DNA of 64,000 bases from Carbonactinospora thermoautotrophica (GTDB taxonomy: Bacteria > Actinomycetota > Actinomycetes > Streptomycetales > Carbonactinosporaceae). Location of the stretch: positions 124,001 to 188,000 of the forward strand of contig NZ_JYIJ01000015.1 in assembly GCF_001543895.1 (NCBI RefSeq), given 5' to 3'. How positions within the stretch are numbered: the first letter of the stretch is position 1; each line of letters opens with the position of its first letter. The notes beneath the pieces are model-generated. The model made no database searches. It was not told the DNA's origin and saw only the letters and a list, made by a program, of their open reading frames with translations. Below, one piece after another: positions 2,197-22,453 of this stretch. Position numbers and translations under genes: made by a program.

Positions 2197-4308
2197 TCAG
2201 CCCACGCCCGCCGCGTCCATGCCGCGCAGCTCGCGCTTGAGCTCGTTGATCTCGTCGCGTAGCCGGGCGGCCAGCTCGAACTGCAACTCGGCCGCTGCCG
2301 CGTGCATCTGCTCGGTGAGCTGCTCGATGAGACCGACCAGCTCCTCACGCGGCATGCCGGCCAGGTCCTTGGCGTGCCGGCCCACCTCCCCGCCCCGGGA
2401 GCCCAGCCCGGGGACGGGCGCCTTGCCACGGCTCTGCTGCCGGCCCGCGCCGCCGATGAGCGTCTGGGTGTCGGCGTCCTCACGGATGATCGCGTCAAGG
2501 ATGTCGGCGATCTTCTTGCGCAACGGCTTGGGGTCGATGCCGTGCTCGCGGTTGTAGGCGAGCTGCTTCTCCCGGCGGCGGTTGGTCTCGCCGATCGCCC
2601 GCTCCATGGACGGCGTGATCTTGTCGGCGTACATGATGACCTGTCCGGACACGTTCCGCGCTGCCCGCCCGATGGTCTGGATCAGGGAGGTCTCCGAACG
2701 CAGGAAGCCTTCCTTGTCCGCGTCCAGGATTGCCACCAACGACACCTCGGGCAGGTCCAGGCCCTCCCGCAGCAGGTTAATGCCGACCAGCACGTCGAAC
2801 TCGCCCAGCCGCAGCTCCCGCAACAGCTCCACGCGCCGCAGCGTGTCCACCTCGCTGTGCAGGTACCGCACCCGAATGCCGAGCTCCAACAGGTAGTCGG
2901 TGAGGTCCTCGGCCATCTTCTTGGTGAGCGTGGTGACCAGGACCCGCTCGTCCCGCTCGGCGCGCAGCCGGATCTCGTGGACCAGGTCGTCGATCTGCCC
3001 CTCGGTCGGCTTGACGATCACCTCGGGGTCGACCAAGCCGGTCGGGCGGATGATCTGCTCGACCACCCCGGTGGCCTTCGACAGCTCGTACGGGCCGGGG
3101 GTGGCCGACAGGTACACGGTCTGGCCGATCCGCTCCAGGAACTCCTCCCACTTCAGCGGCCGGTTGTCCATGGCGCTGGGGAGCCGGAACCCGTGCTCGA
3201 CCAGGGTCCGCTTGCGGGACATGTCGCCCTCGTACATGCCGCCGATCTGCGGCACGGTCACGTGCGACTCGTCGATGACCAGCAGGAAATCCGCCGGGAA
3301 GTAGTCCAGGAGGCAGTGCGGCGGGCTGCCCGCGGGCCGGCCGTCGATGTGGCGGGAGTAGTTCTCGATCCCCGAACAGGTGCCGATCTGGCGCATCATC
3401 TCGATGTCGTACTGGGTGCGCATCCGCAGCCGCTGCGCTTCCAACAGCCTGCCCTGCCGCTCCAGCTCCGCCAGCCGCTGCTCCAGCTCCGCCTCGATGT
3501 CGCGGATCGCCCGCTCCATGCGCTCCGGCCCGGCCACGTAGTGGCTGGCCGGGAAGATGTACGCCTCGTCGTCCCGGCTGACCACCTCGCCGGTGAGTGG
3601 ATGCAGGGTGGACAGCGCCTCGATCTCGTCCCCCCACAGCTCGACCCGGACGGCCAGCTCCTCGTACATGGGGAAGATCTCGATCGTGTCGCCACGCACC
3701 CGGAACGTCCCCCGCGTGAACGCCAGGTCGTTGCGGGTGTACTGGATGTCGACGAGTCGGCGCAGCAGCTGGTCCCGGTCGACCTCCTCGCCGACCCGCA
3801 GCCGGACCATGCGGTCCACGTACTCCTGCGGCGTGCCGAGGCCGTAGATGCAGGAGACGGTCGCGACCACCACCACGTCCCGGCGGGTGAGCAGGGAGTT
3901 GGTCGCCGAGTGCCGCAGCCGCTCGACCTCCTCGTTGATCGAGGCGTCCTTCTCGATGTAGGTGTCGGTCTGCGGGACGTACGCCTCGGGCTGGTAGTAG
4001 TCGTAGTACGAGACGAAGTACTCGACCGCGTTGTTCGGGAAGAACTGCCGCAACTCGTTGGCGAACTGGGCCGCGAGCGTCTTGTTCGGCTCGATCACCA
4101 GCGTGGGCCGTTGCAGCCGCTCCACCAGCCACGCGACGGTCGCCGTCTTACCGGTGCCGGTGGCACCCAGCAGCACCACGTCATGCTCGCCGGCCCTGAT
4201 CCGGCGTTCCAGCTCCTCGATGGCCTGGGGCTGGTCGCCTGCGGGCTCGAACTCGCTGACGACCTTGAACGGGGCAACCTTGCGCACGAGGTCGGTAACG
4301 GGTCGCAC
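2197..4308 (-). CDS. uvrB: UvrABC excinuclease subunit B
   Basis: UvrB is the damage-verifying helicase-like subunit of nucleotide excision repair; it takes damaged DNA from UvrA and recruits UvrC. The protein is about 703 residues. The Walker A motif GATGTGKT is near residues 48-55. The beta-hairpin [12 protein letters not shown] used for strand insertion is near residue 101. A DESH Walker B follows, then a helicase C-terminal domain and a final UVR motif (about residues 655-690) that contacts UvrC. I start at the GTG at 4308, which gives VRPVTDL, matching homologues; the frame is open for another 69 codons upstream but that part looks like spacer. The Shine-Dalgarno is weak or absent. I saw no LexA box upstream. 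Confidence 0.96.
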
Positions 4309-18970: not shown

Positions 18971-19588
18971 TTACTCAGGACGACCTGGACCGTCCCCGCC
19001 GTCGATGACGGCCTGGGCCACCTCGCGCATCGTCAGTCGCCGGTCCATCGAGGTCTTCTGGATCCAGCGGAACGCCTGCGGCTCGGTCATCCCGTACTCG
19101 GTCATCAGGATGCCCTTGGCCCGGTCGACCAGCTTCCTGGTCTCCAGCCGCTGCTGGAGATCGGTGACCTCCCGCTCCAGCTGGGTCAACTCCTGGTACC
19201 GCGACATCGCCATCTCGATCGCCGGCACCAGGTCCGCCTTGGTGAACGGCTTGACGAGGTACGCCATCGCACCCGCGTCCCGCGCCCGCTCCACCAGCTC
19301 CCGCTGCGAGAACGCAGTCAAGATCACCACCGGCGCGATCCGCGTGGCCGCGATCCGCTCCGCGGCCGAGATGCCGTCCAGCACCGGCATCTTCACGTCG
19401 AGTATGACCAGGTCCGGCCGGTGCTCCTCGGCCAGCTTCACCGCCGTCTCGCCGTCCCCGGCCTCGGCGACGACCTCGTAACCCTCCTCCTCGAGCATCT
19501 CCTTGAGGTCGAGCCGGATGAGCGCCTCGTCCTCGGCGATGACCACGCGGCGGGAAGGCTTCTCGGTGTCTCGCGCGTTCTCGGTCAC
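18971..19588 (-). CDS. pdtaR: ANTAR-domain response regulator, PdtaR-like
   Basis: Two-component regulator of 205 residues. The receiver domain (about 13-130) has the acidic pocket AEDE (about 18-21), phospho-acceptor Asp64 in VILDVKMPVLDG, and conserved Thr and Lys in ILTAFS and VKPFT. A coiled linker (QLEREVTDLQQRLETRKL) leads to a C-terminal ANTAR domain (about 147-200: DRAKGILMTEYGMTEPQAF, and REVAQAVI). ANTAR domains bind paired RNA hairpins and act as antiterminators; in mycobacteria PdtaR partners the kinase PdtaS. No kinase gene is in this window. The start is a GTG with AAGGA upstream. Confidence 0.92.
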   Translation of the reverse strand: MTENARDTEKPSRRVVIAEDEALIRLDLKEMLEEEGYEVVAEAGDGETAVKLAEEHRPDLVILDVKMPVLDGISAAERIAATRIAPVVILTAFSQRELVERARDAGAMAYLVKPFTKADLVPAIEMAMSRYQELTQLEREVTDLQQRLETRKLVDRAKGILMTEYGMTEPQAFRWIQKTSMDRRLTMREVAQAVIDGGDGPGRPE

Positions 19589-19737
19589 GGTGTTCCTTCG
19601 TCCTGGTCAGTGGGAACTGTGCCAGATAAGAGGGTACCTAGACGTGCACGCGCGGCATCGCGCTGCGACGTCGGCTACACTCACGATCGCCCTCAGAGTT
19701 CTGGCATGAGGTCTACTCACAACTGAAGATCTTTCGA

Positions 19738-19821
19738 GCCGGGTTGGCGGAATAGGTATACGCTGGCGCCTCAAAAGCGTCTGTCCGAAAGGACATGCGG
19801 GTTCGAGTCCCGCACCCGGCA
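19738..19821 (+). tRNA. tRNA-Leu (anticodon CAA)
   Basis: Eighty-four bases fold as a class II tRNA. The acceptor GCCGGGT (19738-19744) pairs with ACCCGGC (19814-19820), followed by discriminator A. There is a D arm, then an anticodon stem GGCGC/GCGTC with loop CTCAAAA, so the anticodon is CAA (reads UUG). The long variable arm TGTCC-GAAA-GGACA and a T arm with TTCGAGT are diagnostic of Leu. CCA is not encoded. A run of five T follows two bases after the discriminator, consistent with termination. Confidence 0.96.
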
Positions 19822-19869
19822 CTTTTTGTTTTCAATGCATCCCACTCGGGCGGACAGGCTACCCCGATC

Positions 19870-19887
19870 GGGTGATCTTTGTCACCC
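19870..19887 (+). terminator. Weak hairpin downstream of tRNA-Leu
   Basis: GGGTGA (19870-19875) and TCACCC (19882-19887) form a 6-bp stem with a 6-nt loop in the spacer between tRNA-Leu and the LAGLIDADG gene. It could add to termination of the tRNA transcript; it is short and may be chance. Confidence 0.35.
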
Positions 19888-19949
19888 ATTCGGATGACCC
19901 CGCAAACTGAACATAGGTTCGAATCTTTGCCCAAGCGGATGCTACGGGT

Positions 19950-20729
19950 ATGCGACACGACCTGCAGACCCGCCAGCACGCGCTCACCCTCCTGCGGGAG
20001 GGTAGGTCCTATGAGGAGGTCGCGCGCATCTGTCGCGTTCCTCGGGGAACAGTGGGCTACTGGCTCCATATGGACCGCGTGCAGCGTGGAGAACCGCTTC
20101 CGGACATTGAGAAGCAGACCTCATGCGCCCGGTGTGGCGACCTCCCTCTCGCCCGCGTGCCGTACGCGTACCTGCTCGGCCTGTACCTCGGAGACGGGCA
20201 CATCGTGAGGCCGAGACAACATCGGACCTGGACCCTCTCGATTTTCTGCAGCGATGACTGGCCGGGACTGAAGGACGCGGCGACAGCAGCAATGACGGCG
20301 GTAGTGCCCACCTGCCGCCCGTGTCGCGTACAGCGCACTGGATGCACGGAGATCAAGGCCTACTCAAAGCACTGGCTCTGCCTGTTCCCTCAACACGGGC
20401 CAGGAAGGAAGCACGAGCGCGCGATCCGACTCGAGCCGTGGCAACGAGATGTCGTAGCCGAGCAAACACGACATTTCCTACGTGGCCTGTTCCATTCCGA
20501 CGGCACTCGGATCTTGAATCGGGTCCGACACCGGCTCCCCAGCGGTGACCGCTGGTACGAGTACCCGCGCTACCAGTTCGACAACCGCTCACCGGACATC
20601 CTCGAACTGTGCGGTTGGGCTCTCGATCACCTCGGCATCGAGTGGCGGTACTCCAATCCCACCACGATCTCGGTCTCGAAGCGAGAGGCCGTGGCGGCCA
20701 TGGACGAGTTCATCGGGCCGAAGTACTGA
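19950..20729 (+). CDS. Free-standing HTH + LAGLIDADG homing-endonuclease-like protein
   Basis: A protein of 259 residues, not embedded in an intein or intron. Residues 8-42 look like a helix-turn-helix (EGRSYEEVARICRVPRGT followed by VGYWLH). A short CARCG pair of Cys follows at 59-62. Two LAGLIDADG-type motifs are then seen: YLLGLYLGDG (74-83, Asp82) and FLRGLFHSDG (176-185, Asp184), about 100 residues apart as in single-chain enzymes. Between them are more Cys (122, 125, 132) and FPQHGPGRKHER. It begins 128 bp after tRNA-Leu on the same strand. It may be a mobile nuclease, or a domesticated DNA-binding protein; the target is unknown. The start ATG has no strong ribosome site. Confidence 0.82.
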   Translation: MRHDLQTRQHALTLLREGRSYEEVARICRVPRGTVGYWLHMDRVQRGEPLPDIEKQTSCARCGDLPLARVPYAYLLGLYLGDGHIVRPRQHRTWTLSIFCSDDWPGLKDAATAAMTAVVPTCRPCRVQRTGCTEIKAYSKHWLCLFPQHGPGRKHERAIRLEPWQRDVVAEQTRHFLRGLFHSDGTRILNRVRHRLPSGDRWYEYPRYQFDNRSPDILELCGWALDHLGIEWRYSNPTTISVSKREAVAAMDEFIGPKY

Positions 20730-20969: not shown

Positions 20970-22388
20970 TCAGACGGTCTCGCCCACGACGTGGACCCGC
21001 ATGAGGTTGGTGGAGCCGGGGGTGCCGGGCGGACTGCCGGCGGTGATCACGATGAGGTCGCCGGGCTTGCAGCGGTTGAGTTTCTGCAGCGCGTGGTCGA
21101 CCTGGCGGACCATGTCGTCGGTGTGCTGCACCACCTCGCCGAGGAACGTCTCCACGCCCCAGGTGAGGGCGAGCTGGTTGCGGACCTGCGGCACGGGCGT
21201 GAACGCGAGGATGGGGATGGGCGAGCGGTACCGGGCGAGCCGGCGGCCGGTGTCACCGCTCTGCGTGAAGCAGACCAGGTACTTGGCCTCGAGGAAGTCG
21301 CCGACCTGAACGGCGGCGCGGCCGATGGCGCCGCCCTTGGTGCGGGGCTTGCCGGGCCAGGGCTTGAGGCCCTCGGCGAGCATCTGCTCCTCGGTGGCGT
21401 TGATGATGCGGGCCATGGTCTTGACCGCTTCGATCGGGTACTTCCCGACGCTGGTCTCGCCGGAGAGCATGAGCGCATCGGCACCGTCGAGCACGGCGTT
21501 GGCCACGTCAGAGGCTTCGGCCCGGGTGGGCCGGGACGCGGAGATCATCGAGTCGAGCATCTGGGTGGCCACGATGACCGGCTTGGCCCAGCGCCGGGCG
21601 AGCCAGACGGCGCGCTTCTGGACGAGCGGTACCTGCTCCAGCGGCAGTTCGACCCCGAGGTCACCGCGGGCGATCATGATGCCGTCGAAGGCGTCGACGA
21701 TCTCCTCGAGGTTCTCGACGGCCTGCGGCTTCTCGATCTTGGCGAGCACGGGGACGCGGACGCCGACCTCGTCCATCACCCGGTGCACGTCCTCGACGTC
21801 GCGGGCGTTGCGGACGAAGGACAGCGCGATCATGTCGACGCCGAGCCGGAGCGCCCAGCGCAGGTCCCGCTCGTCCTTGGCGGAAAGCGCGGGCACGCTG
21901 ACGTTGACGCCGGGCAGGTTGAGACCCTTGTGGTCGGAGACCACCCCACCTTCGATGACCATGGTGACGACGCGGTTGCCCTCGACCGCGATCGCCTCCA
22001 GGGTGACCCGCCCGTCGTCGACGAGGATGCGGTCGCCCTTGGACACGTCACCCGGCAGCCCCTTGTAGGTGGTGGAGCAGATGTGCTTGTCGCCGGGGAC
22101 GTCCTCGGTGGTGATGACGAACTCGTCGCCACGTTCCAGGAGCACCGGTCCCTCGGCGAACGTCCCGAGCCTGATCTTCGGGCCCTGCAGGTCGACGAGC
22201 ACACCGACCCCGCGTCCGGTCTCCTCGACGGCCTTCCGGACGGCGTGGTACCGCTCCTCGTGCTCGGTGTAGCTGCCGTGGCTCAGGTTGAGCCGGGCCA
22301 CGTCCATCCCGGCCTCGACCAGCGCGTGGATCTGCTCCAGGCTGTTCGTGGCTGGGCCCAGCGTGCACACGATCTTGGCTCGACGCAT
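20970..22388 (-). CDS. pyk: Pyruvate kinase
   Basis: Glycolytic enzyme that makes ATP and pyruvate from phosphoenolpyruvate and ADP. The protein is 472 residues and starts MRRAKIVCTLGPATNS. The catalytic barrel includes GMDVARLNLSHG, the lid domain (about 70-165), and the signature IMIARGDLGVELP around the metal-binding region with KIEKPQAVENL. The C-terminal allosteric domain starts near residue 340. The ATG at 22388 fits homologues; the longer open frame upstream (62 codons) has no family similarity. Downstream is a hairpin terminator. Confidence 0.96.
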   Translation of the reverse strand: MRRAKIVCTLGPATNSLEQIHALVEAGMDVARLNLSHGSYTEHEERYHAVRKAVEETGRGVGVLVDLQGPKIRLGTFAEGPVLLERGDEFVITTEDVPGDKHICSTTYKGLPGDVSKGDRILVDDGRVTLEAIAVEGNRVVTMVIEGGVVSDHKGLNLPGVNVSVPALSAKDERDLRWALRLGVDMIALSFVRNARDVEDVHRVMDEVGVRVPVLAKIEKPQAVENLEEIVDAFDGIMIARGDLGVELPLEQVPLVQKRAVWLARRWAKPVIVATQMLDSMISASRPTRAEASDVANAVLDGADALMLSGETSVGKYPIEAVKTMARIINATEEQMLAEGLKPWPGKPRTKGGAIGRAAVQVGDFLEAKYLVCFTQSGDTGRRLARYRSPIPILAFTPVPQVRNQLALTWGVETFLGEVVQHTDDMVRQVDHALQKLNRCKPGDLIVITAGSPPGTPGSTNLMRVHVVGETV

Positions 22389-22453
22389 AGCACCGAGCCT
22401 ATTGGCTACCGGTTGGTAATCCCTTCTCATCCCACTCGGTGAGACGCAGCCGT

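Follow-up and report, generated by a model that had tools for sequence, protein, structure and literature searches.

The gene that directly follows the tRNA-Leu(CAA) gene in the window (the whole stretch of 64,000 nucleotides of Carbonactinospora thermoautotrophica DNA analysed here) is probably a free-standing homing endonuclease gene of the LAGLIDADG type, with an active product that targets a tRNA-Leu gene, in this case tRNA-Leu(CAA). The comparisons with related loci suggest a selfish element that spreads through replacement of its host's tRNA gene; the endonuclease gene rides beside the tRNA and is not spliced into it. Coordinates are listed in Table 1.

Table 1. Features of the endonuclease locus, numbered from the first nucleotide of the window.
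Feature	Position	Strand	Basis
PdtaR-like response regulator ORF (presumed identity), left flanking marker	18971..19588	-	ORF; conserved neighbour at homologous loci
Presumed tRNA promoter region	19693..19737	+	By homology: 45 bp upstream of tRNA within replaced segment of relatives
tRNA-Leu, anticodon CAA, canonical long-variable-arm form	19738..19822	+	ARAGORN; Rfam RF00005, 52.8 bits at 19738-19821
Spacer from tRNA to endonuclease gene, 127 bp	19823..19949	.	
HTH-LAGLIDADG endonuclease gene, 259 aa	19950..20729	+	ORF, Pfam, alignment, model, fold matches
HTH domain, residues 3-46	19956..20087	+	Pfam HTH_23, residues 3-40; model helices 5-46
Cys pair, Cys59 and Cys62	20124..20135	+	Family conservation
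First LAGLIDADG helix and motif, residues 69-83 (Asp82 at 20193-20195)	20154..20198	+	D82 invariant; model helix 69-82
Family signature PQHGxGxKHxRxI, residues 147-159	20388..20426	+	Near-invariant alignment columns
Second LAGLIDADG motif, residues 172-191 (Asp184 at 20499-20501)	20463..20522	+	Pfam LAGLIDADG_3; D184 invariant
N-half, residues 1-144, putatively the part that moves with tRNA form in relatives	19950..20381	+	By homology with Streptomycetaceae
C-half, residues 150-259, putatively the part that tracks species in relatives	20397..20726	+	By homology
Pyruvate kinase (pyk, presumed identity), right flanking marker	20970..22442	-	ORF; neighbour at many homologous loci

The tRNA-Leu(CAA) is the sole tRNA of the window and also the only Rfam match at the gathering score, so no group I or group II intron was detected in the window. 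The endonuclease ORF has its own start and stop and lies outside any intron or intein, and on this ORF structure and the Rfam scan an intron or intein host was ruled out, as the original prediction had claimed. That prediction had also placed the gene 128 bp after an intact tRNA-Leu on the same strand; position and strand were correct, and the distance is one nucleotide shorter. The gene is single-copy in its genome, the only other match (E 0.03) being to the HTH part alone.

The predicted domain plan, with an N-terminal HTH, a Cys pair and two LAGLIDADG motifs carrying Asp82 and Asp184, was confirmed by Pfam, the family alignment and a structural model. HTH_23 matched with 29.9 bits (cut-off 24.6), and LAGLIDADG_3 with 22.5 bits, exactly its cut-off. 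The AlphaFold2 model, built from an alignment of 54 family members, reached a pLDDT of 94.4 and a pTM of 0.84 and contains the HTH helices as well as LAGLIDADG helices at residues 69-82 and 173-184. Its best Foldseek matches were I-Tsp061I, I-AniI and I-DmoI, and inteins were matched too. Re-alignment with VIA-align, which covered residues 58-259, gave Z scores of 15-16 overall and of about 15 for I-DmoI and I-Tsp061I. The protein therefore has two marks of a LAGLIDADG endonuclease, the pair of LAGLIDADG helices with acidic residues and the characteristic fold. Asp82 and Asp184 were identical in 126 of 126 aligned members, which ruled out a loss of catalytic residues in the family; Cys59 was kept in 124/125 members and Cys62 in 113/124, and the PQHGxGxKHxRxI signature was near-invariant. 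With dN/dS mostly about 0.1-0.2 in close pairs with the same tRNA form (NG86 script), the protein is under purifying selection and the family neither decaying nor inactivated. Like I-DmoI, I-Tsp061I and PI-SceI, the window protein has a single-chain LAGLIDADG fold and two motifs with acidic residues. Unlike these intron- or intein-encoded enzymes, it is specified by a free-standing gene beside its presumed target and carries the N-terminal HTH and the signature.

By sequence similarity, the window gene belongs to a widespread, unnamed family associated with tRNA-Leu. In the order, 204 of 293 genomes carried a member, as did 88/394 genomes of the class (protein query) and 23/296 genomes across the phylum (profile query). 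Although the loci were gathered by protein similarity, independent of tRNA presence, 144 of the 145 distinct loci in the class had a tRNA-Leu at most 208 bp away (CAA in 136, UAG in 8), and the one locus without a tRNA-Leu nearby (L099) is located at a contig end. Because this neighbourhood recurs so consistently, the adjacency in the window is not due to chance, and homologues do sit beside tRNA genes, a point on which the original prediction was to be judged. Among 15 loci from other classes, the nearest tRNA was Leu in 14 (10 CAA, 2 CAG, 1 UAG, 1 UAA) and Trp in one; eight distinct viral loci comprised four beside tRNA-Leu, two beside another tRNA and two with none seen. The 5' end of the gene pointed towards the tRNA at 144/144 class loci; gene and tRNA shared a strand at 131 of them and lay on opposite strands at 13, namely the loci of family f6 with UAG and the f21 loci. 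The tRNA was at the 3' end of the gene in six loci of other classes. Three loci (L095, L105 and L172) had the endonuclease gene in two tandem copies after one tRNA-Leu(CAA).

Since tRNA genes are common insertion sites for mobile DNA, the locus could be a plain integration hotspot at which the choice of tRNA-Leu has no functional meaning. We regard this as very improbable, given the strong restriction to leucine tRNAs. Matches to tRNA-Leu fragments away from annotated tRNAs occurred only at L006, L045, L243, L247 and L270, so that the tRNA 3' relics of integrating elements are not usual here, and integration that leaves such relics was rejected. A phage or plasmid origin of the gene was rejected on the absence of tblastn matches: the window protein had none in 50,697 phage and 72,556 plasmid records, the proteins of L247 and L244 had none in phages, and that of L267 had none in plasmids. 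IMG/VR contigs yielded distant relatives only, and a scan with the window protein alone gave none. A search of the open-access literature found no description of the endonuclease family or of the short-arm tRNA form described below, which does not prove that none exists.

The gene was absent from 89 of the 293 genomes of the order. Of these, 80 were searched for the flanking pdtaR gene, and 78 carried it (E 1e-60 or better); one tRNA-Leu(CAA) adjoined pdtaR in all 30 gene-less loci that were read. When full sites were aligned with empty ones (L171/L067, L176/L231), the stretch from the tRNA terminator to the end of pyk lacked the gene in the empty sites. Only remnants were left at L045, L222, L225, L226 and L233, and frameshifted or truncated copies were found at L107, L120, L127, L130, L131 and L132. 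Together with the empty sites, these remnants and broken copies indicate that loss of the endonuclease gene is common. Such presence/absence polymorphism at one site (204 with, 89 without) is a mark of a free-standing homing gene. The empty site that the original prediction asked to be sought in relatives thus exists, and neither outcome that would have spoken against that prediction was found, that is, homologues at unrelated loci with lost acidic residues, or the same place in all relatives with no empty site.

At a single syntenic site between pdtaR and pyk, the Streptomycetaceae (family f2) have tRNA-Leu(CAA) in one of two forms, defined here as a long-variable-arm form (ARAGORN length above 79 nt) and a shorter one of 74-77 nt that lacks this arm. 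In the f2 sample, in which gene-bearing genomes are biased to good matches so that the counts are not frequencies, the gene was intact beside 53 long and 23 short forms, broken beside 5 short forms, and absent beside 10 long and 40 short forms. The form thus varies also among gene-less Streptomycetaceae, a point against the homing reading, although these may have lost the gene. Both forms were also found in f3, f16, f19, f21 and f28; in f19 and f28 there was one CAA gene per genome among the matches listed, and the f38 genome G590 apparently has one long and one short tRNA-Leu(CAA). The short form is widespread in actinobacteria (L044:2239-2311 and 31 further loci).

The 32 distinct short-form sequences fitted a cloverleaf in 98.9% of alignment cells, with 13 of 20 pairs changed on both sides, a fit reached by 0 of 500 shuffles. 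Judged by these compensatory changes, the short form is a genuine, structured tRNA, and its anticodon and A73 suggest that it would be charged with leucine. Five short-form CAA genes tested against Rfam, one of them viral, scored 51-61 bits; in the same run the long-form gene of L018 fell below the gathering score, yet it was found by ARAGORN. Several features accompany the forms. A near-palindrome close to CCTTCGATTCGAAGG flanks the short-form tRNA on both sides in Streptomyces (e.g. L027, L056) and could be a site for a protein or form hairpins used in processing. In many long-form loci (e.g. L018) a hairpin resembling a terminator (AAGCGGA..TCCGCTTTTT) lies between tRNA and gene, and it is retained in empty sites. 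Locus L025 has a long-form tRNA with a short-form-like 3' flank and is an apparent recombinant of the two forms.

Gene-bearing f2 loci were compared in pairs wherever their pdtaR identity reached 0.935 or more, which gave 41 pairs, 16 with different tRNA forms and 25 with the same form. The pairs are not independent, lineages are shared among them and in the tree counts given below, and the positive sample leans to good matches. The flanks were alike in both groups (pdtaR 0.951 in different-form vs 0.953 in same-form pairs, pyk 0.929 vs 0.942). Between the flanks, identity dropped in different-form relative to same-form pairs, with 0.30 vs 0.74 for the 45 bp ahead of the tRNA, 0.51 vs 0.82 for the tRNA, 0.37 vs 0.77 for the spacer and 0.57 vs 0.84 for the N-half of the gene; it recovered in the C-half, with 0.76 vs 0.88. 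The drop was visible in 50-column windows for L173/L202 and L018/L190. Close relatives thus differ by a replaced segment that comprises the tRNA promoter, the tRNA and usually the N-half of the endonuclease gene. N-half identity was below 0.60 in 12 of the 16 different-form pairs and 0.68-0.85 in the other four (0.85 in L020/L167). It was also below 0.60 in 3 of the 25 same-form pairs, and in nine of these 25 the tRNA alone had been replaced (tRNA at most 0.70, N-half at least 0.82). From this pattern of identities the tRNA is the shared centre of replacement and the right-hand end is variable; the four alike N-halves and the nine tRNA-only replacements show that N-half and tRNA are linked, not strictly matched, and strict one-to-one matching was ruled out.

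Trees of 73 gene-bearing f2 loci (FastTree, with changes counted by a Fitch script against 200 shuffles) agreed with this division of the gene. Changes of tRNA form numbered 9 on the N-half tree (mean of shuffles 19.7, minimum 15), 16 on the C-half tree (mean 19.8, minimum 16) and 18 on the pdtaR tree, where the count was as in shuffles (mean 19.7, minimum 15). Distances in the C-half tracked those in pdtaR (r 0.51, permutation maximum 0.21), and no tracking was found for the HTH (r 0.16, maximum 0.23) or the first LAGLIDADG half (r 0.17, maximum 0.24). At pdtaR identities of 0.90-0.94, HTH identity was 0.69 between loci of the same form vs 0.38 between loci of different form, and the C-half had almost no such gap. 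Within the short form, tRNA and N-half distances showed a weak link; within the long form they showed none. Set against the species tree, the N-half and the tRNA spread horizontally and the C-half vertically. The endonuclease gene is therefore a mosaic of a C-half that descends with the species and an N-half that moves with the tRNA form.

The original prediction had offered domestication as a regulator as a second possibility. The protein would then be a regulator or tRNA-maintenance factor that binds the tRNA-Leu promoter or the tRNA and serves a host function as WhiA does, in which the order is LAGLIDADG-HTH and the catalytic acidic residues and nuclease function are lost. Both proteins combine the two domains, and the LAGLIDADG domain of WhiA aligns to the endonuclease model with a Z score of 15.6. 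The gene has also been retained for long at one site, and we keep domestication in view because the C-half is vertical and the protein is under purifying selection. The HTH of the window protein, however, is N-terminal (Pfam, model) and not C-terminal, which reverses the domain order of WhiA; the N-half is exchanged horizontally, and remnants and frameshifted copies exist. Since both catalytic Asp residues are invariant and the gene is missing from many relatives (89 of the 293 genomes of the order), domestication is not favoured, and we consider it distinctly unlikely.

Variation in other tRNAs bears on whether the endonuclease drives these replacements. No family member was found within about 1.5 kb of the Streptomyces tRNA-Leu(UAG) at any of 18 Leu-tRNA loci (from 19 regions, L290-L308). 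The 18 sequences of this tRNA nevertheless included 17 distinct ones with a mean pairwise identity of 0.73, about as variable as tRNA-Leu(CAA) within each form (0.79), and tRNA-Lys(UUU) and tRNA-Met, taken as controls from a tRNA covariance search of 30 genomes, stood at 0.98. Leucine tRNAs therefore vary beyond the reach of a linked gene, which counts against the endonuclease as the sole driver and ruled out the notion that only the element-linked tRNA-Leu is variable. A switch of architecture was seen in tRNA-Leu(CAA) only. These observations leave room for a different explanation, in which the diversity of tRNA-Leu has a separate cause (phages, anticodon nucleases or toxins that cleave tRNA, for example), ordinary recombination exchanges the alleles, and the endonuclease gene is just a passenger linked to them or a homing gene of the ordinary local kind. 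The tRNA-only replacements, which happen without the gene, also favour it. It does not explain why the endonuclease sits beside tRNA-Leu of four isoacceptors, in several classes and on viral contigs, or why its catalytic residues are invariant. Moreover, in family f20, where no gene was found in 35 genomes, the anticodon-to-T-arm string was identical in 33 of the 35; in gene-free f38 the tRNA was moderately variable (12 sequences, 0.89). On balance we judge the passenger role unlikely and prefer a homing endonuclease directed at tRNA-Leu.

Viral copies give some indication of where such an enzyme would act. In the viral locus L247 the gene lies inside a split tRNA-Leu, with the 3' tRNA part directly after the stop codon and a 5' part whose 24 nt (3925-3948) match a bacterial tRNA-Leu(CAA) without a difference. 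A further tRNA-Leu(CAA), complete and of the short form (4118-4191), is located within the reading frame between the HTH and the nuclease, which makes L247:3925-4752 a nested arrangement, a whole tRNA in an endonuclease gene that itself splits a tRNA-Leu. This single case comes nearest to an insertion into tRNA-Leu caught in place, with a putative break between D-arm and T-arm. At locus L273, also a single case, a C-terminal fragment of the gene is accompanied by two tRNA-Leu(CAA) copies, one intact and the other altered upstream of the anticodon stem, which would fit the same break region. On three further viral contigs (L248, L249 and L250) an HTH-less relative of the endonuclease directly follows tRNA-Met.

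Free-standing homing endonucleases cut alleles that lack them and are copied along with their flanks. In the cycle that we propose, the HTH and the LAGLIDADG halves would recognise a tRNA-Leu allele unlike the linked one, and the tRNA gene would be cut, the likeliest place being between D-arm and T-arm. Repair from the element-bearing locus would proceed through pdtaR on the left and pyk or the C-half of a resident endonuclease gene on the right, so that the endonuclease gene, in part or in full, would be copied together with the tRNA and tRNA promoter of the donor. The incoming tRNA would escape cutting and go on decoding UUG. The data fit a cut inside the tRNA gene that is repaired from the donor locus, provided that the donor tRNA is itself uncut; we infer that the protein cleaves DNA, that its linked tRNA is immune and that this cleavage caused the tRNA replacements. 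The original prediction had offered homing into tRNA-adjacent sites as one possibility. Its core stands with the tRNA-Leu neighbours, the empty sites, the kept catalytic residues and the horizontal tRNA and N-half, and the part that needs revision is the target, which is likely to be the tRNA gene itself rather than merely an adjacent site.

A more far-reaching version of this cycle is conceivable, and we put it forward tentatively, as doubtful in its full extent. The tRNA and the N-half would form an exchangeable self/non-self module in which the N-half cuts the tRNA-Leu(CAA) of other alleles and spares its own, the tRNA serving as a built-in immunity gene. Competing modules of this kind, each fused to a vertically inherited C-half, might have driven the repeated swaps between the ordinary form and the form without the long variable arm across actinobacteria.

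A comparable mode is known from phages. In endonuclease competition and in SegF-type intronless homing (reportedly the topic of Belle 2002), differing flanking markers spare the element's own copy and are co-converted with it. The window system would likewise rely on differing flanking markers that spare its own copy and are replaced with the element; unlike in SegF-type homing, a tRNA gene would take the part of the marker, and the exchange usually extends to the N-half of the endonuclease only. SegB is said, in the title of Brok-Volchanskaya 2008, to be responsible for the preferred inheritance of the T4 tRNA gene region. Two accounts describe SegB of T-even phages as a free-standing GIY-YIG enzyme encoded between tRNA genes (PMC2988022), with cleavage peaks inside tRNA genes, the motif RAWTSGAAC and frequent co-localisation with tRNAs (PMC13096335). 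Read as its reverse complement, the motif becomes GTTCSAWTY, a sequence that fits the tRNA T-arm. The window gene resembles SegB of T4 and T6 in being a free-standing endonuclease gene beside a tRNA gene. Unlike SegB, which is GIY-YIG, phage-borne and located in a multi-tRNA cluster, the window family is LAGLIDADG with an HTH, chromosomal and mostly single-copy, is found almost only beside tRNA-Leu and is linked to the exchange of two tRNA architectures. As the window protein has no GIY-YIG nuclease domain and is LAGLIDADG by Pfam and by fold, it is not a member of the SegB family and is similar only in its presumed mode; by this analogy it would work like SegB without being SegB, and we claim no homology. 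With the mode already known, what would be new is a chromosomal, leucine-tRNA-specific LAGLIDADG homing system tied to the exchange of tRNA architecture.

If this reading is correct, a core gene of translation is being remodelled in bacterial chromosomes by a selfish endonuclease, and tRNA architecture, normally among the most conserved of features, would be altered by gene conversion and not by gradual mutation. The nuclease would travel with an immune copy of an essential-type gene, a natural case outside phages of the principle behind a rescue gene drive. Such a system would, in addition, account for the occurrence of two unrelated-looking forms of one leucine tRNA gene in neighbouring species of Streptomyces.
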